Source: Bacteroidales bacterium
Lineage (GTDB): Bacteria > Bacteroidota > Bacteroidia > Bacteroidales > P3
NCBI GenBank assembly: GCA_024400545.1
Contig: JAKSMO010000014.1
Coordinates: 1 to 46,716, forward strand
Direction of reading: 5' to 3'
Length of the DNA stretch: 46,716 nucleotides
Shown: positions 27,879 to 43,797 of the stretch, piece after piece
How positions within the stretch are numbered: the first letter of the stretch is position 1
How the letters are laid out: every line of letters begins with the position of its first letter
Notes under the pieces: generated by a model
Seen by the model: the letters and a program-made list of their open reading frames with translations, nothing else
Database searches by the model: none
What the model was told of the DNA's origin: nothing
Made by a program: the position numbers and the translations under genes

Positions 27879-29177
27879 ATGAAGATTTCTGTAGCAGGTA
27901 CCGGTTATGTCGGTCTTAGTATTGCCACTCTTTTGGCTCAACATAACGATGTTACAGCAGTTGATATTGTGTCTGGACGTGTGGAGTTGGTGAATCGTAG
28001 AAAAAGCCCCATACAAGATGAATATATCGAGCGTTTCTTCGCCGAAGACCTCCAACTACGTAAAGGCGAGGCAAAGTCCGACTTCATCCTCAAAGAGTGC
28101 TTAAATCTGAAGGCCACCACCGATTGGCAGGCCGGCTATGCTGGTGCTGAATATGTGGTAATTGCCGCTCCCACCAATTACGATAGTGTGAAGAATTTCT
28201 TCGACACTTCTGCCGTGGAAGATGTGATTCAGAAGGTGATGCAAGTGAATCCCGATGCCATTATGGTTATCAAGAGCACCATCCCTGTAGGCTATACCGA
28301 GAGCGTAAGAGCTAAGTTCAATACCGACAAGATTATGTTCGCTCCCGAGTTTTTGCGCGAGAGCAAGGCCCTCTACGACAATCTTTATCCCAGTCGTATC
28401 ATCGTGGGTTACCGTCAGGGCGATGACCAATTGGCTGCCAAAGCCCGCCAGTTTGCCCAACTGATCAAAGGCGGGGCCATCCAGGAAGAAATCCCGATGC
28501 TGGAGATGGGCTCTACCGAGGCTGAGGCCGTGAAACTCTTTGCCAATACATATCTGGCTCTGCGTGTGAGCTACTTCAATGAGTTGGATACTTATGCCGA
28601 GCTGAAAGGTCTCGACACGCAGCAGATTATCAATGGTGTGTGCCTCGACCCCCGTATCGGCACCCATTATAATAACCCCAGTTTCGGCTATGGTGGCTAT
28701 TGCCTGCCCAAGGACACCAAGCAGCTGCTGGCCAACTATGCCGATGTGCCTCAGAATATGATGAGCGCCATTGTTGAGAGCAACCGCACCCGCAAAGATT
28801 TTATTGCTGATCAAGTGCTGAAAAAAGCAGGTTGGTACGACTATTTTACCAATAACCAGTATATCCAACAGCCAACAGTTAACGGCGAACAGCCTGTTAC
28901 CGTTGGTGTCTATCGCCTGACGATGAAGAGCAATAGCGACAACTTCCGTCAGTCGAGCATTCAGGGTGTGATGAAGCGCGTGAAGGCCAAAGGTGCCAAG
29001 GTGATTATTTATGAGCCCACCTTGGAGAACGGCAGCACTTTCTTCGGCAGCGTGGTGGTGAACGATCTTGCTACATTCAAACAGCAGTCAAACGCCATCA
29101 TTGCCAACCGCTACGACGACTGCTTGGATGATGTGTCCGAGAAGGTCTATACCCGCGATATCTTCAAGCGCGACTAA
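27879..29177 (+). CDS. ugd: UDP-glucose 6-dehydrogenase
   Basis: A 432-residue enzyme oxidising UDP-glucose to UDP-glucuronate with two NAD+. The N-terminal GTGYVGLS (residues 7-14) binds [13 protein letters not shown] and [15 protein letters not shown] are family motifs, and the catalytic Cys275 is in [14 protein letters not shown]. It resembles the short Ugd group used in capsule loci, distinct from the TviB/WbpA-type dehydrogenase at 39207, which contains GGHCIGVDPYY instead. It is the first gene of the polysaccharide locus and supplies an acidic sugar whose carboxyl group could be an attachment point (see the ATP-grasp genes). upxY follows 36 bp later. Confidence 0.95.
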
Positions 29178-29213: not shown

Positions 29214-29738
29214 ATGCACTGGTTCGTCCTCCGTTGTTCCCCCGGCAAAGAGATTGCCTTGCAGCAGTCTATCCAAACCCGGTTTGGTGTCGAGTGCTTC
29301 GTTCCCATTGAACGGAAACGACAGCACGACAACCACGGACGATTCGTGTGGCGTGAGCGTTGTGCGCTCAGCAGTTATATCTTTGTTCGGACCGAGAAGG
29401 AGGTATTCTACACCATTCCCAAGACAATCACTTCCGTCCATGCCATGATGCGCATGGAGGAAGGATTTTGGCATCTGGTGATAGTGAACGACAAGGCGAT
29501 GTCCGACTTCATCCGTGTGTCGGGCAACAAAGAAGAACGCGCCGTATATCTTGATCCGGCCAAACTCCACTTCAAAAAAGGCGACCGAGTACGTGTGATA
29601 GGCGGCTCTTTTACCGGCGTCGAAGGCTATTTCATGCAGATTGGTGGCAAACATGAAAAACGTGTGGTCATCCAACTCGACCAGTTTATAGCCGTCAGCA
29701 CCGCCGCCATCCCCGCCGCCCTAGTCGAGAAGATTTAG
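29214..29738 (+). CDS. upxY: UpxY-type transcription antiterminator (NusG paralogue)
   Basis: A 174-residue specialised NusG. The NGN domain (about residues 1-105) starts MHWFVLRCSPGKE and includes ECFVPIERK. The KOW domain is at about 120-155 (KKGDRVRVIGGSFTGVEGYF). In Bacteroides, UpxY proteins promote elongation through the leader of their own capsule operon; this gene's place at the head of the locus fits. Here ugd precedes it and no upxZ inhibitor gene follows, unlike the B. fragilis arrangement. An octamer array starts directly after the stop codon. Confidence 0.92.
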   Translation: MHWFVLRCSPGKEIALQQSIQTRFGVECFVPIERKRQHDNHGRFVWRERCALSSYIFVRTEKEVFYTIPKTITSVHAMMRMEEGFWHLVIVNDKAMSDFIRVSGNKEERAVYLDPAKLHFKKGDRVRVIGGSFTGVEGYFMQIGGKHEKRVVIQLDQFIAVSTAAIPAALVEKI

Positions 29739-29882
29739 CAGTTTATGAAGTTTTGCAGTTAATGAAGTTATGAGTTTTGTAGTTAATGAAGTTATGAAGT
29801 TATGAGTTTGGCAGTTTAGTAGTTTAGAAGTTTATGAGGTTATGAGTTTACTGGTATAAGTTTAGATGCTTAATTGTTTAGC
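29739..29882. repeat. Octamer array of about 18 units
   Basis: Starting right after the upxY stop, the sequence cuts into 8-bp units such as CAGTTTAT, GAAGTTTT, GCAGTTAA, TGAAGTTA (three copies), TGAGTTTT, GTAGTTAA, GCAGTTTA, GTAGTTTA, GAAGTTTA, TGAGGTTA. The core nnAGTTnA is kept while the first two bases vary. A one-base phase change occurs near 29859. Confidence 0.8.
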
Positions 29883-29898
29883 AGTCCGCGCCATCCCA

Positions 29899-29933
29899 AC
29901 TTTCCACTTTCAATTTTCCACTTTCCACTTCCC
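29899..29933. repeat. Heptamer array, 5 units, copy 1
   Basis: In-phase 7-bp units ACTTTCC, ACTTTCA, ATTTTCC, ACTTTCC, ACTTCCC, ending 5 bp before the GT2 start. Near-copies are at 34441-34482 and 35628-35662. Confidence 0.75.
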
Positions 29934-29938
29934 CAAGA

Positions 29939-30982
29939 ATGGTCTCTCCAAAAGTTAGTATTGTAGTCCCTGTTTACAACGTTGAAAAATATATAGAGCG
30001 TTGTGCAAGAAGTCTGTTTGAACAAACAATGGCAGACTTGGAGTTTGTTTTTGTTGATGATTGCTCGCCGGATAAAAGCATGGATATTTTGCATCAGGTG
30101 TTGCAGGATTATCCTCACCGGCAGTCGCAAGTGACGATTGTCCGTCACGAAGTGAATAAGAATCTGGCGGTTTCCCGCAAGGATTCTGCCTATGCGGCTA
30201 CGGGCGAGTTCTTGATGTTCGTCGATAGCGACGACTTTTTGGAACTGGATGCTGCCGAATTGCTGTACAATAAGGCTATAGCAGAAGGTGCTGACCTTGT
30301 GACGTGTGGCGCGTTCCACTATTCGGCCGACAAAGTAAATATCATCAATCCGGCCAATAATGAAATGGGTGAGTACGGCGCTAATGTTCGTGAGGATACC
30401 CTTAACCGCAATGTCTTTACCAGCGTTTGGGCAAAGCTTGTGCGTAGAGAGGTGATGATGAAGGAAGGTGTGGTTTGGCCTGTGCGTGGCTTTTCTGAGG
30501 ATGTGATAGTCTCGGTTATGATGGTGTATTATTCAAATCGCATCGTTAGCATAGAGGACAATCTCTACCATTATTGCTATAATGAAACCTCTTTTATGGG
30601 CGACGTAAGTTTGGCAAAAATGGAAAGCAATTGTCGTGATTCTATGGAGAATTATAAGGTTTTTGCCGAATTCTTCGAAAAGGAGAATTTGGAAGAACAG
30701 TATCCCATGGCGCTGCTTAGATACAAAGTTGGTATCAAGGCTCAATTGGCTATTCTGGCCAACAACAGGCAGCGTCGAATGGAATATCGCACCACTTTCC
30801 CCGAGATTGACAAACATTATTTCTGGGGTAGTGACGGCTATCGTCCATCATTGAAAGAACGATTTCGCATTGCCGCCTGGTGGCTGGGCCTCATGCCTCG
30901 ATTCCACCGAATCATTGATTCTCGACACGTAAGACCAACGAATGCCCCACTGTGTCTTTACATGAAGTGTTCGTATAAGTAA
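29939..30982 (+). CDS. GT2 family glycosyltransferase
   Basis: A 347-residue cytosolic glycosyltransferase. The GT-A domain starts at once (VSIVVPVYNVEKYIERC). Its nucleotide-binding FVDDCSPDKS is near residue 40 and the DSDDF metal motif near residue 97. The C-terminal half (about 200-347) resembles capsule and O-antigen GT2 proteins but gives no sugar specificity. The ATG follows a heptamer array instead of a recognisable ribosome-binding site. The next gene is a paralogous GT2 9 bp later; both should extend the repeat unit of the polysaccharide on its lipid carrier. Confidence 0.9.
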   Translation: MVSPKVSIVVPVYNVEKYIERCARSLFEQTMADLEFVFVDDCSPDKSMDILHQVLQDYPHRQSQVTIVRHEVNKNLAVSRKDSAYAATGEFLMFVDSDDFLELDAAELLYNKAIAEGADLVTCGAFHYSADKVNIINPANNEMGEYGANVREDTLNRNVFTSVWAKLVRREVMMKEGVVWPVRGFSEDVIVSVMMVYYSNRIVSIEDNLYHYCYNETSFMGDVSLAKMESNCRDSMENYKVFAEFFEKENLEEQYPMALLRYKVGIKAQLAILANNRQRRMEYRTTFPEIDKHYFWGSDGYRPSLKERFRIAAWWLGLMPRFHRIIDSRHVRPTNAPLCLYMKCSYK

Positions 30983-30991
30983 TCAGTAGCT

Positions 30992-32002
30992 ATGCCAAAA
31001 GTATCTTTTATCGTTGCCGTTTATAATGTTGGTCAATATATCCAAGAGTGTGTGAGGAGTTTGTATGCTCAGACATTGGACGATATTGAGGTTGTGCTTG
31101 TTGACGATTGCTCGCCCGACAATAGTATTGAGCTGGCTATGCAGGCACTTGAAGATTTCCCTGCTCGCAAGGATCAGGTGAAGGTGGTTCGCCATAGTCG
31201 GAATATGGGTCTGCCTCAGGCTCGTCATACCGGTGTTGATGCGGCGACAGGCGATTATGTCATGTTCATTGATGGCGACGACTATATCGATACAGAGTTG
31301 GGTGAGTTGATGTATCTTCAGGCGCAAAAGGATGCAGCAGATCATGTGTTTTGTTGCTATCTGAACTTTACACCTACAAGTGAGCGTTTTATGAGCATTG
31401 TGCGTCAGGATTCGGCTGGCAATACCGACAAGCTAAGGGATGATGTGCTGAATCGTGTCGTTGTGCCGTTCCTGGTGGGTAAGCTGACCCGCAGAGAGCT
31501 TTTCTATTCGCACGATATCATTTGGCCTACCTGCAATATGGGCGAAGACTCTGTGCTTTCCCCCCAGTTGGCTTATTGGGCAAAGAAAATCACCCACATC
31601 ACCCAAGCAGCCTATCATTATCGTACCAATCCTCAGTCGTTGTCCAACGGATATACGGCCGATTTGTGTGTGAGTCGAAGAAATGAATTCTCCGAGAATA
31701 TCGAGCTGTATTTCAAATTTCTTGAGCGAGAGGGCGTAGCAGAGAAATACTGGTATGGCATATTGTCCAACAAACTGCGCGCAAAAAATAGGTTGCTGCC
31801 CGTGGTGGGCAATTGGAAATATAGGAAGATGTGGCTCGACACTTATCCTGAAGTGAATAAGACCGTATTTTGGGGCGATAAGAATTTCCGTGCCACCTAT
31901 CATGAGCGCTTGTGGTTCTTGATAGTGCTTTTCGGCTTTTACCCCATCATCGAAAAACACCGCCTCAACCATTACTATGTCCCCCATGGCGAATGGATTT
32001 AA
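30992..32002 (+). CDS. GT2 family glycosyltransferase
   Basis: A 336-residue GT2 enzyme of the same subfamily as the preceding gene: VSFIVAVYNVGQYIQEC, LVDDCSPDNS near residue 40 and FIDGDDYID (metal-binding DGDD) near residue 92. The two share several C-terminal blocks such as the NxRLLPVVGNW / NNRQR region and FWG(D/S)-type ends, suggesting an old tandem duplication. It starts 9 bp after its paralogue and ends 22 bp before the first ATP-grasp gene. Acceptor and donor are not readable from the sequence. Confidence 0.9.
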   Translation: MPKVSFIVAVYNVGQYIQECVRSLYAQTLDDIEVVLVDDCSPDNSIELAMQALEDFPARKDQVKVVRHSRNMGLPQARHTGVDAATGDYVMFIDGDDYIDTELGELMYLQAQKDAADHVFCCYLNFTPTSERFMSIVRQDSAGNTDKLRDDVLNRVVVPFLVGKLTRRELFYSHDIIWPTCNMGEDSVLSPQLAYWAKKITHITQAAYHYRTNPQSLSNGYTADLCVSRRNEFSENIELYFKFLEREGVAEKYWYGILSNKLRAKNRLLPVVGNWKYRKMWLDTYPEVNKTVFWGDKNFRATYHERLWFLIVLFGFYPIIEKHRLNHYYVPHGEWI

Positions 32003-32024
32003 ATGTTAGTCAATAGTTAGTGTT

Positions 32025-33134
32025 ATGAATTATATCAACTCAAAGTTGCTCAGAAATATCTATCTTTGGGTCTGGGTTCGTCCTTCCCAGTTGGTACAAT
32101 TGGTGCGTCATCCCGAGTTTTATACTTCGCCAACATATTATCCCGAATATCCCGAACGACTGCGCTCCCATGTCAGTCAGTTCTTCAATCAGGTGGGCGA
32201 GATTCTGCGCTTTGGCCGTATCAATACGTTGTATTTCCTGTGTGGCTATGATGTGAAGACCCGCAAGGAACAGAAAGAGTATGTCCATTATAATACATTT
32301 ATGTATAGGCGCGTCGAATTGAATCTCATGCACAAAGATAGTAGTGCTTGCATTCTGCGCGACAAGATGCTTTTCGCCATCTTCTTGGAAGGATTAGGAC
32401 TGAAAGGCCCGAATATTCGGTATTATTATGATAACGGCCAGCTGTTCCGCTTTGCCGACAAGTCGGTGGCGGATGAGGCTTCGTTTCTGCACGATAATCG
32501 TGTGCTGTTCTGCAAACCGCTTGACGGACAGTGCGGCAAAGGCATCTTTGTGCTAGAGGTAAAAGACGGACGATTGTTTATAGGCGATGAAGAGCTTACA
32601 TTTGAACAGCTGAGAGAGCGGATGGCGGGGCGGTACATCCTTCAGGATTTTGTCAAGCAGCACCCCGCTATGGCACATCTGCATCCGCAGTCAATCAATA
32701 CAATCCGATTGCTGACGGTGCGGAGTCTGAAAGATAATGAGATTCACTTTATGCCCTCAATCCTCCGTATCGGCACAGGCGCCAGTGTGGTGGATAATAC
32801 CACTCAGGGCGGATTGGCCATAGGCATCCATCTGGATAACGGTTATCTGAAACATTATGGGTTCTTCAAGCCCCGTTTCGGCACCAAGGTGGAGAGTCAT
32901 CCCGACAGCCATGTGAAATTTGATGAATTCCAGATACCCTTCTTCGAGGAAGCCAAGCAACAGGCAAAGCTCATCCATTCCATGCTCCCCGACATCCATT
33001 CTATTGGTTGGGATATCGCCATTGGCGAGGATGGACCTTTGTTTATCGAAGGCAACGACAACTGGGAGATCACCGGTCCCCAAACCTGCAACGGCGGCTT
33101 CCGCAAATACTTCACCGAATATTTCTTCAAGTAA
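32025..33134 (+). CDS. ATP-grasp protein, sugar-transfer-associated type (first copy)
   Basis: A 369-residue ATP-grasp enzyme of the group found in polysaccharide loci (ATPgrasp_ST-like). ATP-grasp enzymes join a carboxylate to an amine or similar group using ATP. The N-terminal 110 residues are specific to the group. Core signs are LFCKPLDGQCGKGIFVL (P-loop-like Lys/Gly segment), QSINTIRLLTVR, TQGGLAIGI and the C-terminal GWDIAIGEDGPLFIEGNDNWE with metal-binding Glu and Asn. It has no membrane segments. Placed between two glycosyltransferases and a carboxyethyl-amino-acid enzyme, it may ligate an amino acid to a uronic acid (inference). A paralogue is at 34566. Confidence 0.82.
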   Translation: MNYINSKLLRNIYLWVWVRPSQLVQLVRHPEFYTSPTYYPEYPERLRSHVSQFFNQVGEILRFGRINTLYFLCGYDVKTRKEQKEYVHYNTFMYRRVELNLMHKDSSACILRDKMLFAIFLEGLGLKGPNIRYYYDNGQLFRFADKSVADEASFLHDNRVLFCKPLDGQCGKGIFVLEVKDGRLFIGDEELTFEQLRERMAGRYILQDFVKQHPAMAHLHPQSINTIRLLTVRSLKDNEIHFMPSILRIGTGASVVDNTTQGGLAIGIHLDNGYLKHYGFFKPRFGTKVESHPDSHVKFDEFQIPFFEEAKQQAKLIHSMLPDIHSIGWDIAIGEDGPLFIEGNDNWEITGPQTCNGGFRKYFTEYFFK

Positions 33135-33140
33135 CCTATT

Positions 33141-33204
33141 GGGTGTTTGAGTATATTGGTATATTAGTATATTAGTATAAAGGTATAGGGGATATCAGTA
33201 GTGA
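33141..33204. repeat. Octamer array of about 8 units
   Basis: In-phase units GGGTGTTT, GAGTATAT, TGGTATAT, TAGTATAT, TAGTATAA, AGGTATAG, GGGATATC, AGTAGTGA, starting 6 bp after the ATP-grasp stop. The pair TAGTATAT/TGGTATAT also occurs at 11001. The rest of the spacer up to 33369 holds nothing I can name. Confidence 0.7.
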
Positions 33205-33369
33205 GGCAGGATGGCAGCTTGCTTTCCTCCCAGCCCCATGGATCTGCTTAAGAAGAAAACGCTGCGACAAGTAAAATCACAAATTCACCAATTCTGGAAA
33301 AATTGACTGCGCCGCCACGCCTTTCGCTTGTAGGAGGGGTCGAGGGTGGCATTTAAAAACAAAAACAAT

Positions 33370-34311
33370 ATGAAATTAGGCTTTGTAAAACCAACATATC
33401 CCAGCGAGCAGCGAGTGGCGCTCCTGCCCGAACATATAACCGATGACTATGAGAATGAATTGGTCATCGAGACCGGCTTCGGTGCCAATCTTGGCATCTC
33501 CGACGCTGAGTACGAAAAGAAAGGATGTCGGATTGATACTCGAGAGAATATTTTCAAGACGTTAGACACTATCTTCTGCCTTAAGCTGTTGCAACCTCAG
33601 GACTACGACATGATCCGTGATGGACAGATGATTATTGGATGGACTCATCCCACGGGATCAGGTACTGAGTTCTACAAGAATATTGCTTGCAAGAAAAAGC
33701 TGAAGGTCATCGACCTCGACAATATCTATCCCACTGCCCATTTGGGCGATTTGCATATCCCAGTGCCTTTCATCAAGAAGAACTTTGTGTGGAAAAACAG
33801 TTTCTATGCCGGTGTGGCTAGCACGCAGCATGCCTTGTTCCATTTCGGATTATATCCTAATTCTGATACCAAGGTGGCTATTCTGGCTAGTGGAAGTGTC
33901 TCCCAGGGTGCCTATTCCTATATATCTAAATATAATGTCGATCTGCGCTTGTTCTATCGCAAGACCATGAATGAGTTTTACGAGACCATTGGCGATTATG
34001 ATATCATCATTAATGGTATCGAAGTTGATGGCACTGTCGATCATATCATCACCGAGGAACAATTGAAACAGGTGAAACGTGGTTGCCTGGTGATTGACGC
34101 AGCGGCCGATGCCGGCAATGCTATTGAAGGCACTCGCTATATGTCCATTGCCGACCCAATGTATGAGAAAGACGGACTCTATTTCTACGAGGTGAACAAT
34201 GCCCCCTCGTTGCTGTATCGCAATACTAGTTTCGAGATTAGCAAATCCTTCTCCGAATGGGTCTATAAGAAAGATGTCTCCCGCTTCTGGTCCCTCTTCC
34301 CGGAGGATTAG
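33370..34311 (+). CDS. N5-(carboxyethyl)ornithine synthase-like dehydrogenase
   Basis: A 313-residue NAD(P)-dependent enzyme of the alanine dehydrogenase/transhydrogenase superfamily. It closely follows the pattern of N5-(1-carboxyethyl)ornithine synthase, which reductively couples pyruvate to the side-chain amine of ornithine or lysine. Visible blocks: KLGFVKPTYPSEQRVALLPEH, QMIIGWTHPTGSG, VIDLDNIYPTAHL, the NAD-binding ILASGSVSQGAYSY, INGIEVDGTVDHII and VIDAAADAGNAIEGT. I chose the ATG at 33370, where the family N-terminus begins; a GTG 24 bp upstream is less likely. A carboxyethylated lysine or ornithine in a sugar-polymer locus is unusual for a metabolic enzyme. It fits the amino-acid-decorated O-antigens known from Proteus and Providencia (established knowledge; application here is inference). 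Confidence 0.85.
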   Translation: MKLGFVKPTYPSEQRVALLPEHITDDYENELVIETGFGANLGISDAEYEKKGCRIDTRENIFKTLDTIFCLKLLQPQDYDMIRDGQMIIGWTHPTGSGTEFYKNIACKKKLKVIDLDNIYPTAHLGDLHIPVPFIKKNFVWKNSFYAGVASTQHALFHFGLYPNSDTKVAILASGSVSQGAYSYISKYNVDLRLFYRKTMNEFYETIGDYDIIINGIEVDGTVDHIITEEQLKQVKRGCLVIDAAADAGNAIEGTRYMSIADPMYEKDGLYFYEVNNAPSLLYRNTSFEISKSFSEWVYKKDVSRFWSLFPED

Positions 34312-34326
34312 CGTGTGGGAGGTATT

Positions 34327-34398
34327 GGGTTTAGTGGTTTATCAGTTTATTAGTTTAATTGTTGAGTCGCTTAGTCGTTAAGTAGCGTAGTCGTCAAT
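34327..34398. repeat. Octamer array of 9 units
   Basis: In-phase units GGGTTTAG, TGGTTTAT, CAGTTTAT, TAGTTTAA, TTGTTGAG, TCGCTTAG, TCGTTAAG, TAGCGTAG, TCGTCAAT, starting 16 bp after the preceding stop codon. Consensus close to the arrays at 29739 and 20085. Confidence 0.75.
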
Positions 34399-34440
34399 AA
34401 CCCATCTAGAAAGCCCCCAAAAATTCACCGCGTCAGCCTA

Positions 34441-34555
34441 ACTTTCCACTTTCCACTTTCAGTTTTCCACTTTCCACTCTCCCGCGTCATCCCTCCGTTC
34501 CCATAAAACAACGGCTCCCGCCCCAGTCCACGTTCACGTCCACGTTTACGTTTAA
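34441..34555. repeat. Composite array: 7-bp units then 6-bp units (left flank of second ATP-grasp gene)
   Basis: Heptamers at 34441-34482 (ACTTTCC, ACTTTCC, ACTTTCA, GTTTTCC, ACTTTCC, ACTCTCC) are followed, after a spacer with TCCCGCCCC, by hexamers at 34526-34555 (GTCCAC, GTTCAC, GTCCAC, GTTTAC, GTTTAA). The same order recurs as a direct repeat after the gene, at 35628-35726. Confidence 0.8.
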
Positions 34556-34565
34556 AAAAACCGCA

Positions 34566-35603
34566 ATGAAACTTTTCAGCTCTCTTCATCAAAAGATAGA
34601 AGGCACCGGCCTGGATACCCTTTACATCTATTATCATCGTCATAGAGGTCGTGGACGCGAAGCCGTCATTCGTGACTATTTGGGCGACAATGTTTCCGAG
34701 AAAGAAATCAAACGAATCTCTCGCCGTATGCGCTATGCTTTTCTGCGCTATGGCTGGAAGTTCGACGAGTATTTCGAATGGCATTTTGAAGAATTGACCC
34801 ATAAAGAGCGTAAGTCGTTTGTACCCGATCTGCATAAAGACTATTTCTGCGATATGATCAATCCCAAACAGGGGATTAAGGTCTTCATGGATAAGGGTCT
34901 TACTTATCTGAAATTCAAGCCTTTCTATAAGCGTGATGTCTGTGCTGTGAAGTCTTGGGAGAAGGATGGTTCTGCGTTTGCTGATTTCATTCATCGTCAT
35001 CCTACTTTTATCGTCAAGCCCCTCACGGCCTCCATGGGCAATGGGGTACAGATTTTTAGAGATAGTAATGCTTCGGCGGCAGAAGATATCTGCAAGTCTT
35101 ATCCCGAAGGACTCATAGCAGAAGAGTTGATAGAACAGGTGGATGAACTGAAAGAGGTCTTCCCTCATTCGGTAAATACGGTGCGTATCACAACGTTGAT
35201 TTTGAAGGACGGGACGGTTATCCTACATCCCTTTATCCGTTTCGGCCGTGGGGAGAATATCGTTGACAATGGCGGACAAGGCGGTCTGTTCTGCGCTATT
35301 GATCCAGCGACAGGTCGTGTTACCGCTGTCCGCGATAAGCATAGCAGGGCTTTTGAACAGCACCCCGAGACCGGCCATCAACTCATTGGATTCACAGTCC
35401 CCCGATGGAAAGATGCCTGTGATTTGGCCCTTCAATTGGCACAGGTATATCCCGAATGCCGATACGTCGGTTGGGACTTGGCCCTCACCAATGACGGCTG
35501 GGTGATGGTGGAAGGCAACTCCCGTGGCCAGTTTATCGGCTTCCAACTCCCCGCCCTCAAAGGCTTCCGCTCCGAATTCGAACAACTCAAATCCCGCCTG
35601 TAG
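34566..35603 (+). CDS. ATP-grasp protein, sugar-transfer-associated type (second copy)
   Basis: A 345-residue ATP-grasp enzyme, distant paralogue of the one at 32025. Shared blocks are FIVKPLTASMGNGVQIF (nucleotide-binding Lys and Gly), HSVNTVRITTLI, GGQGGLFCAI and GWDLALTNDGWVMVEGNSRG (metal-binding Glu/Asn). The N-terminal 100 residues are basic and differ from the first copy. No membrane segments. The two copies flanking the carboxyethyl-amino-acid enzyme could handle two ligation steps or two acceptors (inference). The gene is bracketed by direct composite repeats, so it may have been inserted or be exchangeable by recombination. Confidence 0.82.
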   Translation: MKLFSSLHQKIEGTGLDTLYIYYHRHRGRGREAVIRDYLGDNVSEKEIKRISRRMRYAFLRYGWKFDEYFEWHFEELTHKERKSFVPDLHKDYFCDMINPKQGIKVFMDKGLTYLKFKPFYKRDVCAVKSWEKDGSAFADFIHRHPTFIVKPLTASMGNGVQIFRDSNASAAEDICKSYPEGLIAEELIEQVDELKEVFPHSVNTVRITTLILKDGTVILHPFIRFGRGENIVDNGGQGGLFCAIDPATGRVTAVRDKHSRAFEQHPETGHQLIGFTVPRWKDACDLALQLAQVYPECRYVGWDLALTNDGWVMVEGNSRGQFIGFQLPALKGFRSEFEQLKSRL

Positions 35604-35627
35604 CCCCAACCACTCAACCTACTCTCA

Positions 35628-35726
35628 ACTTTCCACTATCAGTTTTCCACTTTCCACTTTCCAAATCGGCCCCCGCCCAAAGTTTACGTTCACGTCCACG
35701 TCAAAGAAGTCCACGTTTACGTTAAA
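35628..35726. repeat. Composite array: 7-bp units then 6-bp units (right flank of second ATP-grasp gene)
   Basis: Heptamers at 35628-35662 (ACTTTCC, ACTATCA, GTTTTCC, ACTTTCC, ACTTTCC), then CCCCCGCCC, then hexamers at 35682-35726 (GTTTAC, GTTCAC, GTCCAC, GTCAAA, a GAA interruption, GTCCAC, GTTTAC, GTTAAA). Direct repeat of the composite at 34441-34555; an 18-base stretch (34461-34478 and 35641-35658) is identical. Confidence 0.8.
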
Positions 35727-35745
35727 AAAATCTTGTTGGATTTTT

Positions 35746-35775
35746 TTGTTATTTAAATAATTTTTCTTATCTTTG
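35746..35775 (+). promoter_or_regulatory. Second promoter inside the polysaccharide locus
   Basis: TTG (35746-35748, in a TTTTTTTG run) and TATCTTTG (35768-35775) are 19 bp apart. The -7 box is identical to that of the ugd promoter. It gives a long leader of about 175 bases before the export lipoprotein. Confidence 0.78.
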
Positions 35776-35818
35776 CAACGATGAAACTATACGGAAATTC
35801 CCCTATGGTATCGTTATA

Positions 35819-35906
35819 CCCGCTTGAGTAACATGAGCTTAGCTATTCGAGCGGGAAATACAATATACCCCATTGCCTATCTTTCATGTATTTTATATTC
35901 CCGCTC
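35819..35906 (+). promoter_or_regulatory. Leader with three mutually exclusive pairing segments
   Basis: Segment A (CCCGCTTGA, 35819-35827) can pair with segment B (TCGAGCGGG, 35847-35855; one G-T). Segment B extended (GAGCGGGAA, 35849-35857) can instead pair perfectly with segment C (TTCCCGCTC, 35898-35906). A-B and B-C cannot form together, the usual logic of an attenuator or RNA switch. No T run follows C directly, so translation or pausing control is as likely as termination. Confidence 0.5.
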
Positions 35907-35958
35907 TATTTGTAAAATCATTATGTCGGATTGCAAATCAGCCAGAAATTTTGAACTC

Positions 35959-36828
35959 ATGAAACCCGCTATACTTCCTCTCTTTGTTTTCGCCCTACTT
36001 TCCATCACCGCTTGCCGTTCAGTAGATGAGATGGCGTATTTTGCCGATGCGCAGCGCGACAGTGCGCAGGCTATTATCACAAACTACACCACGACTATCC
36101 ACCCCGGCGACCTCCTCAACATCTACGTCAACAGTCTGACTCCTGAGTCAGTTATTCCTTTCAACCAAGAGACCCATACTTTGGCAGCACAAGCAAGCAA
36201 AGCCAATGTCGTCGATACCACACATAGATCCGTCATCACTGAGAAAATGCTCTCAGAAAACCTTTCGACAAGTAAACAAACCAACACCTATGGTTATCTT
36301 GTTGACGAGTATGGCTACCTGTTAATGCCTATTATCGGTAAGATGAAAGTCGTAGGCATCACTCACGACTCCTTGCAGAATCGAATCCAGAACTTCCTTA
36401 GAGACGGAGGTTACATCAACGATGCCGTCGTAACCGTTTCCAATACCAATTTCCGAGTTTCTGTTGTGGGTGAGGTGACAGTGCCGCGAGAACTCCATGT
36501 CCAAGGCAACCGACTCACTATTTTAGAGGCAATAGCTATGTGTGGCGACCTCACCATGGATGCCGTCCGAGATAATGTCGTTGTCATGCGCATGCAAGGT
36601 GGTCAGTCCACCCCGATTGTCCTTGACCTCACCAGCCAATCCCTCTTCAACTCCCCCGCCTATTACCTCCAAACCAACGACATCGTCTATATCGAACCCA
36701 ACAAAAAGAAAAAGAGAATCGCCACCCGTGACGAGACCTGGCCCAAATATGCCGAGTTCTGGGTCGCAGTTGGTGCGGCGGTAGTAAATATTGGACGTGC
36801 AAATTGGGCGTTATTACGTCAGAGATAA
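35959..36828 (+). CDS. Polysaccharide export lipoprotein (Wza/KpsD-type)
   Basis: A 289-residue outer-membrane export lipoprotein. The signal peptide ends in the lipobox LSITAC (Cys about residue 19). The Poly_export domain follows (about 40-190: IHPGDLLNIYVNSL, then YGYLVDEYGYLLMPIIGKMKVVGIT), then an SLBB-type domain (about 165-250: FRVSVVGEVTVPRELHVQGNRLTILEAIA). A C-terminal hydrophobic stretch (FWVAVGAAVVNIG) may span or insert in the outer membrane. I chose the ATG at 35959 because it gives a proper lipoprotein signal; the frame is open further upstream. It would form the export channel; the Wzc-type co-polymerase normally beside it is not in the window. Confidence 0.9.
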   Translation: MKPAILPLFVFALLSITACRSVDEMAYFADAQRDSAQAIITNYTTTIHPGDLLNIYVNSLTPESVIPFNQETHTLAAQASKANVVDTTHRSVITEKMLSENLSTSKQTNTYGYLVDEYGYLLMPIIGKMKVVGITHDSLQNRIQNFLRDGGYINDAVVTVSNTNFRVSVVGEVTVPRELHVQGNRLTILEAIAMCGDLTMDAVRDNVVVMRMQGGQSTPIVLDLTSQSLFNSPAYYLQTNDIVYIEPNKKKKRIATRDETWPKYAEFWVAVGAAVVNIGRANWALLRQR

Positions 36829-36978
36829 ATCCAGACTCCTATACAAAAGCCAATCATTTTTTGTCAAAGTAGGTTTCAAGTTCAAAGTTTCAAGAAAAAA
36901 GTCATTCCTTACTTTAAACAACAACCTTTGTCCCTTATCTTTATAACTAGGTATCCCAATTAATTACCTTCACCAGCT

Positions 36979-38199
36979 ATGAAAAAGCGAACTTCCCCAA
37001 GCGAACAGACAAAAGCCAACGATTCCCAAGCGAGAGCAGATGCCAAGTTTCATTTGGACTATGCCGAGCGTCAGAATCGTCAGCGACCAACGGGAGCTAA
37101 CAGTCAAAAGCAAATAGAGATTATGCTAGAGCTTCTCCGCGCTGCTGTCCTTGACCGCGACCCAGTTCTCGACCCCGCAGTCAACGTAGATTGGGATGAT
37201 CTCATGGATCGAGCTTCTAAGCAAGGCATTTTGGCCTGGGTCTATGATGGTATTAGCAAACTCCCCAAAGAACAGCAACCTCCCCGCCAACAACGCATCA
37301 ACTGGGCACTATCTGCGCAGGAAATATGGGATAGATATCACAAGCAGAAAGAGGTATTGGCAGATATGGTCAGGGTGTGTGATGAGAATGGAATGAGAAT
37401 GTTGCTGCTCAAGGGTATCGGATTGTCAGAATTATATCCCAAGCCAGAGTCCAGACCTAGTGGAGACATTGATGTGTTTTTTTACGATGATTTTGAGAAG
37501 GCGAATGATTTATTAGGTAGAGACGGATTTGTACATTGGGGGAAACATGATGAGTGGCAGATAGGAGGCATAGAGATAGAAAACCATAAAAACTTCATTA
37601 ATGTCGATTCAAAAAGACAGCGTAAGATAAATCAATTTCTTCTTGATAGTACACGGGATTCGTATCCAACGGAATTTGGCTTTTCCCTTTTTCCTCCTGA
37701 AGTAAATTTTATTTTCCTTATGCTGCATGCAATGGAACATTTTGAGTCGGCATATCCTGTGTCGTATAAAACCATATTGGATTTAGGTATGTTCTTGTTG
37801 AAGAATCAAGATGTCATGGATCCAAGGTGTCTATTTGTTATTCTCAAAAAATTTCGTCTCGAAAAGTCTTTCGAACTTTTGTTACAGTTATCAGAATATT
37901 TATTGGGAATAAGGTTTTCTTCATTTCATATTACTACAGTACCAAGTCATGACTTTGAGAAAGCTATTGATTCAATCAATACTAGATGTTTAGATTTGCG
38001 AATGAATCATGGCAGTGATTATGGAATTCTATATATATGGAGTCTTGTACGCCAATACAGTAAGATGCGTTGGAAGTATAAGTATTTGATGGTGTCAAAA
38101 CTCTTTTTGTTAAAAAAGAGTTTGGCTCCTATAATTCAGCCGTCAATACTAAATAATTATAGAAAGTTAAAACAAAATATTTTTAGTACAAATAGTTAA
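36979..38199 (+). CDS. NTP_transf_5-type nucleotidyltransferase family protein
   Basis: A 406-residue protein of the uncharacterised nucleotidyltransferase family often found in polysaccharide loci. The core LLLKGIGLSELYPKPESRP-SGDIDVFF holds the likely metal-binding Asp163 and Asp165 (DID) and Lys145. The C-terminal half is mostly helical. Its true reaction is not known. The first 40 residues are a charged, low-complexity extension. Base composition changes inside the gene: up to about 37330 it is GC-richer with CGC/CCC codons, after about 37440 it is AT-rich with AGA and TTT/ATT codons. This suggests a recombination joint within the gene. A short heptamer array (TTTCAAG, TTCAAAG, TTTCAAG at 36874-36894) lies in the spacer before it. 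Confidence 0.78.
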   Translation: MKKRTSPSEQTKANDSQARADAKFHLDYAERQNRQRPTGANSQKQIEIMLELLRAAVLDRDPVLDPAVNVDWDDLMDRASKQGILAWVYDGISKLPKEQQPPRQQRINWALSAQEIWDRYHKQKEVLADMVRVCDENGMRMLLLKGIGLSELYPKPESRPSGDIDVFFYDDFEKANDLLGRDGFVHWGKHDEWQIGGIEIENHKNFINVDSKRQRKINQFLLDSTRDSYPTEFGFSLFPPEVNFIFLMLHAMEHFESAYPVSYKTILDLGMFLLKNQDVMDPRCLFVILKKFRLEKSFELLLQLSEYLLGIRFSSFHITTVPSHDFEKAIDSINTRCLDLRMNHGSDYGILYIWSLVRQYSKMRWKYKYLMVSKLFLLKKSLAPIIQPSILNNYRKLKQNIFSTNS

Positions 38200-38207: not shown

Positions 38208-39182
38208 ATGGATTATCGTCAGTTAGTCTTTCCTTCTAATTCTTTATTTTTGGTCACTGGAGCTGCTGGATTTATTGGAAGTAATTTGTGTGAGGCTATT
38301 TTGTCTCTTGGATACAGAGTCAGAGCATTGGACGACCTTTCTACAGGGAAACAAGAGAATATTGACATGTTCCTTTCTCACCCTAATTATGAGTTTATTA
38401 AAGGTGACATTAAGATTTTAGATACGTGTATGAGGGCTTGTCAAGGTGTGGATTATGTTCTAAATCAAGCTGCCTGGGGTTCTGTCCCTCGTTCAATTGA
38501 GATGCCTCTTTTTTACTCGCTGAACAATATCCAAGGTACGCTCAATATGCTGGAGGCTGCTCGTCAGAATGGTGTGAAAAAGTTTGTTTATGCGTCATCA
38601 TCTTCGGTGTATGGCGATGAACCCAATCTGCCAAAGCGAGAAGGTGTTGAAGGTAATCTTCTTTCTCCTTATGCAGTGAGCAAGCGTTGCGATGAGGAGT
38701 GGGCCAAACAGTATACGCGTCATTATGGATTGGATACCTATGGCTTACGTTATTTTAATGTTTTTGGTCGTCGACAAGATCCAGATGGTGCTTATGCTGC
38801 CGTAATACCCAAATTTATTAAGCAATTGATTAATGGTGAAAAATGCCGTATCAATGGTGATGGGCGACAATCTCGTGATTTTACTTATATTGAGAATGTC
38901 ATTGAGGCTAATTTGAAGGCATGTGCGGCTTCGCATGAGGCTGCTGGACAGGCGTTCAATATTGCTTATGGCGGTAGGGAGTACCTTATTGACATATACT
39001 ATGGTCTTACTAAGGCTCTCGGTGTAGATGTGGAGCCTGAATTTGGCCCTGATCGTGCAGGTGATATCAAGCATTCTAATGCAGATATTTCGAAAGCAAA
39101 GACTCTGTTAGGTTATGACCCTGAATGGAGTTTCGAACGTGGTATAGCCGCAGCTATCGATTGGTATAAAAATAATCTTTAA
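38208..39182 (+). CDS. UDP-N-acetylglucosamine(-uronate) 4-epimerase, WbpP/TviC-like
   Basis: A 324-residue extended SDR epimerase. The NAD-binding GAAGFIG is at 18-24; the active site is SSSSVYGD with Tyr155-x3-Lys159 (YAVSK). GDGRQSRDFTYIENV and NQAAWGSVPRSIEMP match the WbpP/TviC branch, which inverts C4 of UDP-GlcNAc or its uronate. The next gene is the matching TviB-like 6-dehydrogenase, so the pair would make UDP-N-acetylgalactosaminuronate, as in Vi antigen synthesis (known for the families; inferred here). It starts 8 bp after the preceding stop. Confidence 0.88.
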   Translation: MDYRQLVFPSNSLFLVTGAAGFIGSNLCEAILSLGYRVRALDDLSTGKQENIDMFLSHPNYEFIKGDIKILDTCMRACQGVDYVLNQAAWGSVPRSIEMPLFYSLNNIQGTLNMLEAARQNGVKKFVYASSSSVYGDEPNLPKREGVEGNLLSPYAVSKRCDEEWAKQYTRHYGLDTYGLRYFNVFGRRQDPDGAYAAVIPKFIKQLINGEKCRINGDGRQSRDFTYIENVIEANLKACAASHEAAGQAFNIAYGGREYLIDIYYGLTKALGVDVEPEFGPDRAGDIKHSNADISKAKTLLGYDPEWSFERGIAAAIDWYKNNL

Positions 39183-39206: not shown

Positions 39207-40475
39207 ATGAAAGATACAAAAATTTGTGTTGTAGGCCTTGGCTATGTTGGCCTTCCTTTGGCTCGTCTTTTCTCCACTAAGTATCAGACCATTGGTTTTG
39301 ATATGAATGCAAAACGTTGCGAAGCGCTCATGGCTGGTCATGATGCAACGCTTGAGGTGAGTGATGAATTACTCCAGGATGCGATTAACAATCATGGTTT
39401 CATCTGCACGGCAGATATAGAAAAGATTCGTGATTGCAATTTCTATGTAGTTGCTGTACCCACACCTGTAGATGAGAACAACAACCCCGACCTCTCACCA
39501 CTATATGGTGCGTCAACTACTGTGGGCAAGGTTATTTCAAAAGGTGATGTAGTGGTTTATGAATCTACTGTTTATCCAGGAGTAACCGAGGATGAATGCA
39601 TTCCCGTGGTAGAAAAAGTGTCTGGTTTAAAGTTTAATGTTGATTTCTTTGCTGGATACTCTCCGGAGCGCATCAATCCAGGCGACAAGCTCCACACGGT
39701 TGAACACATCAAAAAGGTTACATCAGGTTCCACTCCTGAGATTGGTCAATATGTCAATGAGGTTTACTCATCTGTCATCACCGCGGGTACCCATCTCGCA
39801 CCTACTATGATGGTTGCTGAGGCGGCTAAGGTTATCGAGAACTCTCAGCGTGACATCAACATTGCTTTCGTCAACGAACTCTCGCACATTTTCACCAAGA
39901 TGGGTATCGACACTCTTGATGTTCTTGAGGCTGCAGGCACCAAGTGGAACTTCCTTCCTTTCCGTCCGGGTCTTGTTGGAGGCCATTGCATCGGTGTCGA
40001 TCCTTACTATCTGGCACAATGTGCTCAACGTCATGGTCACAATCCTGAGATTATCCTCGCTGGTCGTCGTATGAATGATGGTATGGGTGAGTATGTGGCT
40101 ACTGAGACGGTCAAGCACATGCTCAAAAAAGGTATTCAAGTATTGAATTCAGATCTTTTGATTTTAGGGTTCACATTTAAAGAGAATTGTCCTGATGTTC
40201 GCAATACTAAGGTCATTGATATTTACAAAACGCTCAAAGAATATAATGTAAATGTCACAATCTACGACCCATGGGCCAATCCGGCTATTGCCATGCATGA
40301 GTATGGTGTTGAGGTTGTTAATGAACTTCCCAATAAAAAATTTGATGCTTGCATTGCTGCTGTAGCTCATTCGAAATTCGATGGGTTGGATGTGCTGAAC
40401 CTGCTGAATGAGAAACATGTCATTTTTGACGTGAAATGCACATTGGATCGTTCACTAATTGATGCAAGATTGTAG
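39207..40475 (+). CDS. UDP-N-acetylhexosamine 6-dehydrogenase, TviB/WbpA-like
   Basis: A 422-residue nucleotide-sugar dehydrogenase oxidising C6 of a UDP-HexNAc to the uronate with two NAD+. GLGYVGLP (residues 10-17) binds NAD. VVAVPTPVDENNNPDLSPL and YESTVYPGVTEDE are WbpA/TviB traits. FFAGYSPERINPGDK follows, with catalytic Cys261 in GGHCIGVDPYY and FKENCPDVRNTK near the C-terminus. It differs from the Ugd at 27879 in these motifs, so the two have different substrates. It lies 24 bp after the C4-epimerase and should work with it to give a GalNAcA donor. Confidence 0.92.
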   Translation: MKDTKICVVGLGYVGLPLARLFSTKYQTIGFDMNAKRCEALMAGHDATLEVSDELLQDAINNHGFICTADIEKIRDCNFYVVAVPTPVDENNNPDLSPLYGASTTVGKVISKGDVVVYESTVYPGVTEDECIPVVEKVSGLKFNVDFFAGYSPERINPGDKLHTVEHIKKVTSGSTPEIGQYVNEVYSSVITAGTHLAPTMMVAEAAKVIENSQRDINIAFVNELSHIFTKMGIDTLDVLEAAGTKWNFLPFRPGLVGGHCIGVDPYYLAQCAQRHGHNPEIILAGRRMNDGMGEYVATETVKHMLKKGIQVLNSDLLILGFTFKENCPDVRNTKVIDIYKTLKEYNVNVTIYDPWANPAIAMHEYGVEVVNELPNKKFDACIAAVAHSKFDGLDVLNLLNEKHVIFDVKCTLDRSLIDARL

Positions 40476-40524: not shown

Positions 40525-41415
40525 ATGAAAGGTATAGTTCTCGCAGGAGGATCAGGAACGCGCCTGTATCCTATAACCAAAGGTGTTAGTAAGCAATTGC
40601 TACCCATCTATGATAAGCCAATGGTGTATTACCCCATCAGCGCATTGATGTTGGCTGGTATTAGAGACATTTTGATTATCTCTACGCCTTATGATCTTCC
40701 CGGATTCAAACGTTTGCTTGGTGATGGATCTGACTATGGAGTTCATTTTGAATATGCCGAACAACCAAGTCCTGATGGTTTAGCCCAAGCTTTTATTATT
40801 GGTGAAAAATTCATTGGTAAAGATAGTGTTTGTCTTGTATTAGGGGACAATATCTTTTATGGAAGTGGATTTACCTCTTTACTAAAGAATGCCGTCAAGG
40901 ACGCAGAAATGAACAATAAGGCAACTGTTTTTGGCTATTGGGTTAGCGATCCAGAGCGATATGGCGTTGCTGAGTTTGATAAGCAAGGTAATTGTCTGAG
41001 TATTGAAGAGAAACCCCAAAGACCCAAGAGCAATTATGCTGTTGTTGGCCTTTATTTCTATCCAAACAAAGTGGTGGATGTGGCCAAAACCATCAAACCG
41101 TCTGCTCGTGGAGAGTTGGAAATTACTACTGTAAACCAACGATTCTTGGAAGATGGTGAGTTGAAAGTCCAAGTCTTTGGCCGTGGTTTTGCTTGGCTAG
41201 ATACAGGTACGCATGACTCGCTTAGTGAAGCCTCTACATTTGTAGAAGTAATAGAAAAACGGCAAGGTCTCAAGATTGCATGCCTTGAAGGCATTGCTTA
41301 TCGTAATGGATGGATTACTGAAGAAAAGATGAGAGAACTTGCCCAACCGATGATTAAAAATCAATATGGCCAGTATCTGCTTAAGGTTATTGACGAACTG
41401 AAAGATCACCAATAA
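40525..41415 (+). CDS. rfbA: Glucose-1-phosphate thymidylyltransferase
   Basis: A 296-residue RmlA making dTDP-glucose from dTTP and glucose-1-phosphate, the entry step to dTDP-deoxysugars. GGSGTRLYP (residues 8-16) binds the nucleotide and [15 protein letters not shown] is the second signature. [30 protein letters not shown] and [11 protein letters not shown] follow. Length is typical. The usual next gene, rfbB, is displaced about 660 bp downstream by a GxxExxY gene and its repeats. The two genes otherwise form one dTDP-sugar cassette. Confidence 0.96.
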
Positions 41416-42073: not shown

Positions 42074-43210
42074 ATGAGTAAAAGAAACTTAGTTATCACT
42101 GGTGGTGCCGGTTTTATCGGCTCACATGTTGTCAGACTTTTTGTCAACAAATACCCAGAATATAATATCATCAATCTTGACAAACTTACCTATGCCGGTA
42201 ATTTGGCTAATCTTAAGGATATTGAGAACAAGCCCAATTATAAGTTCGTCAAGATGGATATCTGTGATTTTGACGCCTTCTACAAACTGATGCAGGACGA
42301 GAAGATTGATGGAATCATCCATCTCGCAGCCGAAAGTCATGTCGATCGCTCGATCAAAGACCCTTTCACTTTTGCTCAAACCAATGTGATGGGAACCTTG
42401 AGCCTGCTTCAAGCCGCCAAATTGTATTGGGGGTCTCTACCAGAAAAATATGAGGGAAAGAGATTTTATCATATATCTACCGATGAGGTTTACGGAGCAT
42501 TGGAAATGACCCATCCAGAAGGTATAATGCCGCCCTTCACCACCAAGGCTTCTAGTGAGCAGCATCTGGCCTATGGAGAGAAATTCTTTACTGAGGACTT
42601 AAAGTACCAACCGCATAGCCCTTATAGCGCAGCCAAGGCCAGTAGCGACCACTTTGTGCGTGCTTTTCATGACACATACGGCTTGCCTACAATTGTAACC
42701 AACTGCTCCAACAATTATGGACCATACCAGTTCCCAGAGAAGTTGATACCACTTTTTATCAACAATATCCGCCATCGTAAACCTCTTCCTGTGTATGGAA
42801 AGGGTGAAAATGTACGTGACTGGCTCTATGTGGAAGATCATGCACGGGCTATTGATCTGATTTTCCACAAAGGAACAATTGCCGAGACTTACAATATTGG
42901 CGGTTTCAACGAATGGAAAAACATTGATATCATCCATACCCTTATCCGCACCGTTGATCGTTTGCTGGGACGCCCTGAGGGTGCTGACGACGATTTGATA
43001 ACATTTGTTACCGACCGTGCCGGCCACGATATGAGATATGCCATTGACAGCACCAAGCTACAGAAAGAGCTGGGATGGGAGCCCTCGCTTCAATTTGAAG
43101 AAGGCATTGAATTGACTGTGAAATGGTACTTGGACAACCAAGAATGGATGGACAATGTCACTAGCGGTGAGTATCAGTCGTATTATGAAAATATGTATAA
43201 GGAAAGGTAA
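42074..43210 (+). CDS. rfbB: dTDP-glucose 4,6-dehydratase
   Basis: A 378-residue extended SDR enzyme converting dTDP-glucose to dTDP-4-keto-6-deoxyglucose. GGAGFIGSH (residues 10-18) binds NAD. HLAAESHVDRSI is the family signature, HISTDEVYGAL carries the active-site Thr-Asp-Glu, and YSAAKASSDH supplies Tyr and Lys. NCSNNYGPYQFPEKLIP and GKGENVRDWLYVEDH follow. It is slightly longer than the E. coli enzyme because of an internal segment around residues 120-175. rfbC starts 2 bp after its stop. Confidence 0.96.
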   Translation: MSKRNLVITGGAGFIGSHVVRLFVNKYPEYNIINLDKLTYAGNLANLKDIENKPNYKFVKMDICDFDAFYKLMQDEKIDGIIHLAAESHVDRSIKDPFTFAQTNVMGTLSLLQAAKLYWGSLPEKYEGKRFYHISTDEVYGALEMTHPEGIMPPFTTKASSEQHLAYGEKFFTEDLKYQPHSPYSAAKASSDHFVRAFHDTYGLPTIVTNCSNNYGPYQFPEKLIPLFINNIRHRKPLPVYGKGENVRDWLYVEDHARAIDLIFHKGTIAETYNIGGFNEWKNIDIIHTLIRTVDRLLGRPEGADDDLITFVTDRAGHDMRYAIDSTKLQKELGWEPSLQFEEGIELTVKWYLDNQEWMDNVTSGEYQSYYENMYKER

Positions 43211-43212: not shown

Positions 43213-43797
43213 ATGAACGTGATAAAGACCCCCATTGATGGCGTTGTCATTATTGAACCGAACGTGTTCGCTGATTCTCGAGGATACTTTTTCGAGAGTT
43301 TCTCGCAGAGGGAGTTCTTTGAAAAGGTGCGTAATATTAATTTCGTGCAGGATAATGAATCAATGTCCACTTATGGAGTGATGAGAGGCCTACACTTTCA
43401 GGTTCCACCCTTTACCCAAAGCAAGTTGGTTCGTTGCGTTAAAGGTGCTGTACTCGATGTTGCAGTAGATATCCGCAAAGGTAGTCCGACCTATGGCCAG
43501 CATGTAGCGGTTGAACTTACCGAAGACAACCACCGTCAGTTCTTCGTTCCCAGAGGCTTCGCCCACGGTTTTGCAGTCCTCTCTGAGACGGCAGTCTTCC
43601 AGTACAAATGCGATAACTTTTATGCTCCTCAGGCAGATGGCGGAATTTCTATTAAAGATGATTCTCTTGGCATCGACTGGAAAATACCTGTAGATGAAGC
43701 ACTCCTCAGCGAGAAAGACACGAAGCATTCTTTATTGAAAGATTTTGATTCTCCATTCTCTTACGAAATGAATTTCTATCCTGAATTTAATGAGTAA
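43213..43797 (+). CDS. rfbC: dTDP-4-dehydrorhamnose 3,5-epimerase
   Basis: A 194-residue cupin-fold RmlC that inverts C3 and C5 of dTDP-4-keto-6-deoxyglucose. Family motifs: RGYFFESFSQREF, FVQDNESMSTYGVMRGLHFQ (catalytic His in GLHFQ), VRCVKGAVLDVAVDIRKGSPTYG, and VPRGFAHGFAVLSE. Length is typical. It overlaps the next gene by 8 bp, so rfbC and the SDR are translationally coupled. The reductase rfbD, which normally completes L-rhamnose, is not recognisable in the window. Confidence 0.96.
   Translation: MNVIKTPIDGVVIIEPNVFADSRGYFFESFSQREFFEKVRNINFVQDNESMSTYGVMRGLHFQVPPFTQSKLVRCVKGAVLDVAVDIRKGSPTYGQHVAVELTEDNHRQFFVPRGFAHGFAVLSETAVFQYKCDNFYAPQADGGISIKDDSLGIDWKIPVDEALLSEKDTKHSLLKDFDSPFSYEMNFYPEFNE

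Follow-up and report, generated by a model that had tools for sequence, protein, structure and literature searches.

The window analysed here, a stretch of 46,716 nucleotides that is one whole contig (C12) of a 2.64-Mb Bacteroidales assembly, contains three consecutive genes in which a member of the N5-(carboxyethyl)ornithine synthase (CEOS) family lies between two ATP-grasp ligases. Open reading frames (ORFs) at 32025..33134 (ligase 1, 369 aa), 33370..34311 (the synthase, 313 aa) and 34566..35603 (ligase 2, 345 aa), all on the + strand, agree with the coordinates given in an earlier interpretation of this DNA, the sequence-only reading; the synthase may start either at the ATG at 33370 or at a GTG at 33346 (321 aa), with its end at 34311 in both cases. 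The surrounding region, 27879-46383, reads as a capsule or exopolysaccharide locus truncated by the contig end (46716), with glycosyltransferases, sugar-nucleotide enzymes and an export protein all present. The arrangement, in which two ATP-grasps bracket a CEOS-family enzyme inside a capsule locus, is real, unusual and coherent, with the reservation that the gaps flanking the synthase gene (235 and 254 nt) are long for an operon. The nearest records to the synthase come from Bacteroidales of goat, horse and RUG metagenomes, the last of which we take to be rumen metagenomes, and the host is a gut or rumen bacterium.

The CEOS family is known mainly from Lactococcus, and several lines of evidence place the window synthase (33370..34311) within it. 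Pfam assigns AlaDh_PNT_N (60.7 bits) and AlaDh_PNT_C (49.7 bits) domains, both above cut-off, and a tblastn search of plasmids returned five Bacillota records with 49.7-53.1% identity across 98-100% of the query, four of which are annotated N(5)-(carboxyethyl)ornithine synthase (Lactococcus and Vagococcus are among the hosts); alanine dehydrogenases in the same search, among the 15 of 31 records listed, are only 21-25% identical. In a tree of 34 proteins the synthase and annotated CEOS fall together in a clade of 16 rows (support 100/100), with a group that we label s31 (~27-35% identity to the window CEOS) as a separate sister clade. The earlier description of this gene as N5-(carboxyethyl)ornithine-synthase-like is thus upheld, by full-length identity of ~50% and by shared clade. 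Residues R15, K72, H93 and D247 are kept and align to the Arg, Lys, His and Asp of the AlaDh_PNT superfamily that we take to be catalytic, and the first glycine of the nucleotide loop is replaced, by Ala173 in the window synthase and its close relatives and by Ser in loci L068-L070 (loci are cited by our own numbers). A basic pair, R197-K198, follows the second Rossmann strand, a position suggestive of NADPH as cofactor. The gene is the sole AlaDh_PNT_N match in its genome; it was also the only match in a phylum-wide search of 395 genomes at E 1e-20, and a search of phages gave three weak matches only.

An enzyme resembling alanine dehydrogenase, or another AlaDh_PNT member, that provided alanine or ammonia and made no opine would be expected to show these same domains and catalytic residues, and a sequence search of the PDB with the window synthase returned alanine dehydrogenases and transhydrogenases as best matches, with no entry named CEOS. 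The Vagococcus CEOS, searched likewise, has the same best matches, and the synthase scores just 56.9 bits in the NCBIfam alaDH equivalog test (cut-off 391.85), which it fails. Set beside the identity contrast and the separate, supported clade, these results make the alanine or ammonia explanation very improbable. The probable product of the protein is an unusual amino acid formed from pyruvate and either ornithine or lysine. An arginase-family gene overlaps CEOS by 8 nt in locus L012, an arrangement from which ornithine as the substrate would gain a little.

Both flanking genes encode ATPgrasp_ST (PF14397) proteins, scoring 172.6 bits (ligase 1) and 165.0 bits (ligase 2) against a Pfam gathering score of 31.4. 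They are paralogous ATP-grasps, as had been proposed, though distant ones, with 25% identity across 307 aa. The ATP-grasp lysines and the E-x-N sequence, presumably the metal motif of these enzymes, are intact in each (K114, K164, E342 and N344 in ligase 1; K110, K151, E316 and N318 in ligase 2), and the invariant positions of ligase 1 in alignment A4 are K114, K164, R228, R248, D330, E342 and N344. A PDB search gave no match for ligase 1 and two weak, unrelated matches for ligase 2, and we know of no described activity for the ATPgrasp_ST family, for which no literature search by name was made. A tree built from 60 ATPgrasp_ST proteins of the gathered loci places ligase 1 in a clade of 9 (100/100) within a superclade of 17 (100/99) and ligase 2 in a clade of 6 (100/99); the two types, which we call the 32025 type and the 34566 type, recur as a pair in this order in L082, L084, L087 and L088. 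The 32025 type is the commonest ATPgrasp_ST type beside opine-type synthases in these loci. Within its superclade 7 of 17 members adjoin an opine-type enzyme, compared with 3 of 43 others (hand count, p = 0.003, with L085, where two short PGA_cap pieces intervene, scored as non-adjacent), a contrast that is indicative only because the loci were collected partly through such enzymes. Two observations on these ligases stand apart: the window genome carries a second tandem ATPgrasp_ST pair (G000:C48; L052 7807-9942) that is nearer the 34566 type, and in L082 a cytidylyltransferase-oxidoreductase fusion and a short-chain dehydrogenase (7165-9248) directly precede a 32025-type ATP-grasp, with no opine synthase recognised ahead of that gene.

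We then asked what adjoins CEOS in other genomes, using 16 loci: the window, ten further loci from Bacteroidota or Cloacimonadota, and five from Bacillota. In 9 of the 11 Bacteroidota/Cloacimonadota loci, the window included, CEOS directly adjoins an ATP-grasp-like gene (adjacency was judged from ORFs called greedily and from local profiles, some of them checked with Pfam). The partners vary: the window has ATPgrasp_ST on each side, L006 and L041 have ATPgrasp_ST, L007 has ATPgrasp_ST together with a GARS-type ligase, L009 has a TupA-type ligase, and L068-L070 and L011 have a GARS-type ligase. After three same-genus (g92) loci with similar gene order were merged into one, ligases make up 9 of the 18 genes next to CEOS and 9 of the 127 genes at distances of 2-10 (p = 2.2e-5). 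The sequence-only reading had called for the trio itself to recur in other polysaccharide loci, and this was borne out in part: a CEOS sandwiched by two ATPgrasp_ST genes occurs in the window alone among the 16 loci, and varied ligases adjoin CEOS elsewhere. In L006 a saccharopine-dehydrogenase-like gene (7427-9923 region) with an ATP-grasp gene upstream is directly followed by CEOS and three ATPgrasp_ST genes.

The strongest evidence for an opine-making role of the locus, as judged from gene order and protein similarity, is an exchange of the synthase in locus L087 (genome G025). This locus is collinear with the window, sharing a sugar dehydrogenase (79% identity), a NusG-like protein (70%), three GT2 glycosyltransferases (41-43%), and the 32025-type (64%) and 34566-type (45%) ATP-grasps in the same order, and its CEOS position is filled by a protein of Octopine_DH (PF02317), a family unrelated to AlaDh_PNT, followed by a 453-aa gene. 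Both CEOS and Octopine_DH families make N-(carboxyalkyl)amino acids, including N-(1-carboxyethyl)amino acids. Among solved structures the L087 protein is closest to N-(1-D-carboxylethyl)-L-norvaline dehydrogenase (1bg6, E 2.5e-23), and the Octopine_DH protein of L092, where the order is ATPgrasp_ST, Octopine_DH, ATPgrasp_ST, to octopine dehydrogenase (3c7a, E 9.6e-19). Both of these enzymes are pyruvate-using opine makers. A third case, L091, has the order ATPgrasp_ST, Octopine_DH, GARS-type ligase, which matches L007 except that Octopine_DH stands in for CEOS; this locus and the window also have TviB-, TviC-, RmlA- and RmlB-like genes in common (53-80%).

Across the 189 genomes of the family we found 23 Octopine_DH matches in 21 genomes and none in the window genome. 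Eight of the 23 lie beside an ATP-grasp and 13 have one within 5 kb. ORFs shorter than 140 aa were omitted from the neighbour count, so L085, with its two intervening PGA_cap pieces, is scored as adjacent here, and in L140 and L143 the Octopine_DH frame is masked by an antisense ORF and the neighbours were counted anyway. Six others (334-338 aa; L139, L141, L144-L147) instead adjoin a gene of 601-607 aa, which in L139, the one scanned, is an NTP_transferase-aminotransferase fusion; the pairing looks phosphonate-like to us, presumably, and these six probably belong to another pathway. L135 and L136, two of the eight with an adjacent ATP-grasp, have a gene of ~620 aa on the other side and may belong with that group.

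As a control we used a sample of 15 genomes chosen for having ATPgrasp_ST and a synthase or Octopine_DH, excluding ATPgrasp_ST matches of at most 35.5 bits. Of its 20 candidate synthases (11 Octopine_DH and 9 CEOS or s31), seven have an ATPgrasp_ST gene no more than 1.5 kb away, compared with 0 of 77 DegT and nucleoside-diphosphate (NDP)-sugar dehydrogenase genes (p = 6e-6); when all synthase and Octopine_DH matches are pooled, the count is 7 of 37 (by hand). The protein L083_4797, which is synthase-like by local profile, reads as a D-2-hydroxyacid dehydrogenase and was excluded from the work as a whole.

What we observed are the family identities, the conserved active-site residues, the proximity to ligases and the unrelated opine dehydrogenases in the equivalent position of related loci; from these we infer the substrates, cofactor, bond, polymer and order of events as follows. 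The CEOS-family enzyme would condense pyruvate with an ornithine or lysine side-chain amine and reduce the resulting imine, with NADPH the probable reductant. One ATP-grasp, most likely that at 32025-33134, would activate the carboxylate of a uronic acid as an acyl phosphate and join it to the free alpha-amine of the opine, and the second ATP-grasp may form a further amide bond. On balance we favour the view that the locus builds a capsule whose uronic acid bears an N-(1-carboxyethyl)amino acid ("opine") joined by an ATP-grasp. The sequence-only reading had coupled the synthase to ATP-grasp decoration in the same way, and that coupling now draws support from the family assignments, the capsule context, the ligase linkage in other polysaccharide loci and the opine dehydrogenases at the same position, as a candidate pathway. 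With slightly less assurance, though still leaning towards it, we propose that Bacteroidales capsule loci carry an exchangeable "opine cassette", in which synthases of at least two unrelated families (CEOS, and Octopine_DH in two subclades), perhaps also a saccharopine-dehydrogenase-like enzyme (L006), lie beside ATP-grasps and are swapped, changing surface chemistry.

Several results weigh against this interpretation. The control contrast shrinks with distance, to 7/20 versus 5/77 at 3 kb and 10/20 versus 12/77 at 5 kb (p = 0.002 each), and the excess of ligases beside Octopine_DH is modest (10/45 neighbours versus 16/179 genes two to six places off, p = 0.017). Much of the CEOS adjacency depends on the GARS-type family, which is the sole adjacent ligase in L068, L069, L070 and L011 and without which adjacency falls to 5/11. 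Its assignment is weak (it is below the GARS_A cut-off in L007, L041 and L069, and L011 passes RimK only), although a PDB search with its profile does hit glycinamide ribonucleotide synthetases (E 1.9e-7). Matches to it occur in 41 genomes, and 13 of the 17 strong places that we looked at were new loci without a recognised opine synthase in the 4-15 kb fetched; the GARS-type family is therefore not dedicated to opines. The ATPgrasp_ST profile, moreover, matches neither the TupA-family nor the GARS-type profile, and the s31 paralog has an ATPgrasp_ST gene in the fetched stretch in 1 of 12 loci.

Co-occurrence across whole genomes, which had been suggested as a check, also fails as evidence. A 32025-type ATP-grasp and any CEOS-like gene co-occur in 9/9 genomes versus 5/180 (p = 2.9e-12). 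An rpoB tree was built for 27 genomes, as 3 of the 30 gave no rpoB match; the 8 s31 genomes shown there all fall in one clade of 12, within which the synthase is present in 6/6 ligase holders and in 10/12 genomes overall, a difference that by hand count carries no weight. Because the s31 genomes share one rpoB clade, ancestry explains the association and we dropped it. Separately, L094_43 is a cut copy of L152_6347 and was omitted from tree building. The s31 loci themselves are L043-L051, L071 and L072, with a further member in L042 beside ATPgrasp_ST, where only 11 nt separate s31 from an ATP-grasp of the 32025 type; s31 is near glycosyltransferase and epimerase genes in L043 and L044, whose neighbours were scanned with Pfam, and L071 has a similar order of gene sizes.

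It could also be that CEOS is a bystander, a free-standing metabolic or redox enzyme carried on mobile islands with no role in a polymer. L008 and L010 hold CEOS without an adjoining ligase, and none of the four neighbours scanned with Pfam in L008 is a polysaccharide gene; nor does any ligase adjoin CEOS in the five Bacillota loci (0/5), on Lactococcus, Vagococcus and Enterococcus plasmids. We nevertheless consider such a detached role improbable for the window gene, since ligases tightly adjoin CEOS in unlike loci and unrelated opine dehydrogenases occupy the same position.

A more serious alternative keeps the opine and moves the bond: the ATP-grasp would activate the opine's own carboxylate and join it to an amino sugar or to another amino acid, the latter giving a peptide-like chain, and the uronate would not take part. 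An alanopine derivative of an amino sugar is described for Providencia alcalifaciens O35 in the available excerpt of PMC10609480. Gene content elsewhere is compatible with such chemistry: several ATP-grasps accompany Mur-ligase, alanine-racemase, D-Ala-D-Ala-ligase and CapA-like genes in L042 (Pfam), L087 and L088 have many ATP-grasps with CapA-like genes, and in L088 also a Mur-ligase-like gene (local profiles), and DegT aminotransferases are found in L009 and L069. On the other hand, the window, which stops at the contig end, has no recognised DegT gene, NDP-sugar dehydrogenase genes flank the window genes, and a larger share of such dehydrogenase genes than of DegT genes has ATPgrasp_ST within 5 kb (10/35 versus 2/42, p = 0.005). 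We accordingly hold activation of the opine carboxylate to be unlikely, if clearly the best of the competing explanations, and retain attachment to a uronic acid as the preferred one. As a separate observation, the large loci L042 and L085-L088, which carry CapA-like PGA_cap genes and as many as seven ATPgrasp_ST genes within 20 kb, look like loci for peptide-bearing polymers.

The remaining genes of the window locus, all on the + strand, are those expected of capsule synthesis. At its head lie a Ugd-like UDP-glucose/NDP-sugar 6-dehydrogenase, a candidate source of uronic acid (27879..29177; Pfam UDPG_MGDP_dh N, central and C domains above cut-off; NCBIfam PRK15057 547 bits, under the cut-off of 757), and a NusG-like protein (29214..29738; Pfam NusG 37.9 bits, above cut-off) that we take to resemble the UpxY antiterminators of Bacteroides capsule loci. 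Two GT2 glycosyltransferases (29939..30982, Glycos_transf_2 100.3 bits; 30992..32002, 109.3 bits) precede the trio, as the sequence-only reading had it. Beyond ligase 2 are a Wza-like Poly_export/SLBB outer-membrane export protein (35950..36828; Pfam Poly_export 43.9 bits; the ORF opens with a TTG at 35824), an NTP_transf_5 protein (36979..38199; Pfam 135.7 bits), a TviC-like NDP-sugar epimerase (38208..39182; NCBIfam TviC 300 bits, under the cut-off of 760) and a TviB-like NDP-sugar dehydrogenase, a second candidate source of uronic acid (39207..40475; NCBIfam TviB 530 bits, under the cut-off of 592). The uronate supply from Ugd and TviB/TviC proposed earlier thus has the genes it calls for, at scores below the curated NCBIfam cut-offs. 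They are followed by RmlA-type nucleotidyltransferase (40525..41415; Pfam NTP_transferase 259 bits) and RmlB-type dehydratase (42074..43210; Pfam GDP_Man_Dehyd 307.8 bits) genes, both named from Pfam and their neighbours, and an RmlC-type 3,5-epimerase (43213..43797; Pfam dTDP_sugar_isom 241.5 bits). No flippase or polymerase gene was recognised in the window, whose contig stops at 46716. Scans of the window gave 24 promoter sites versus 16.6 (standard deviation 3.9) in shuffles, and 9 terminators versus 8.9.

Direct repeats of 21-48 nt lie on both sides of the second ATP-grasp gene, with families D2, D3 and D5 present ahead of it (34428..34559) and again past it (35601..35730); repeats also occur at 29886-29933. 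Those around the second ATP-grasp could mark recombination by which such genes move in and out. Within the rml block, at 41499-41876, is a PDDEXK_3 protein, presumably of the GxxExxY type, with a 74%-identical relative in the L092 locus.

A few O-antigens are known from chemistry to contain opine-type amino acids, and the locus offers candidates for both steps, making such a residue and attaching it. It also suggests what ATPgrasp_ST proteins may do and what CEOS may be used for, and leads to the prediction that Bacteroidales of gut and rumen alter their capsules by exchanging opine synthases. Our searches of open-licence PubMed Central papers turned up no published set of genes for the synthesis and attachment of opine-type residues, which is weak evidence of absence.

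Among known enzymes, the Lactococcus lactis CEOS is like the window synthase in whole-protein identity (~50%), near-equal length, clade and active-site residues, and differs in setting: it is found on plasmids with no adjoining ligase, whereas the window synthase is in a capsule locus between ligases. The norvaline and octopine dehydrogenases (1bg6, 3c7a) belong to PF02317 and are unrelated to the window CEOS, yet their relatives hold the CEOS position beside ATPgrasp_ST in L087, L092 and L091. For the ligation step, the sequence-only reading had known of no described enzyme set, a statement that the available part of PMC11800379 corrects: the TupA-like ATP-grasp domain of Cj1438 (Cj1438C), from the Campylobacter jejuni HS:2 capsule, is reported to amidate glucuronate at C6 ahead of chain elongation, the amine partner being serinol or ethanolamine phosphate. 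This reported reaction gives ATP-grasp ligation to a capsule uronate a precedent. On that partial account, Cj1438C and the window ligases are both ATP-grasp enzymes in capsule clusters, and its amine differs from the carboxyethyl amino acid proposed here. The ligases also belong to different families, TupA-like and ATPgrasp_ST: our ATPgrasp_ST profile (A4) does not match a profile of local TupA-family proteins (A6), with which the comparison was made in place of Cj1438 itself (hhalign probability 0.6%, E 0.088, from small alignments), and the comparison is therefore one of analogy and not of membership. TupA-family genes do directly adjoin CEOS in L009 and s31 in L042.

On the side of the product, the O-antigen of Providencia rustigianii O14 contains N-epsilon-[(S)-1-carboxyethyl]-N-alpha-(D-galacturonoyl)-L-lysine, according to the available excerpt of PMC10609480. 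This residue, known from chemistry, is the kind of structure that the window locus could make, and our literature search found no gene set for it. Polysaccharides decorated with amino acids are already known, and the locus described here would be a variant in which a CEOS-family enzyme is bracketed by ATP-grasps.

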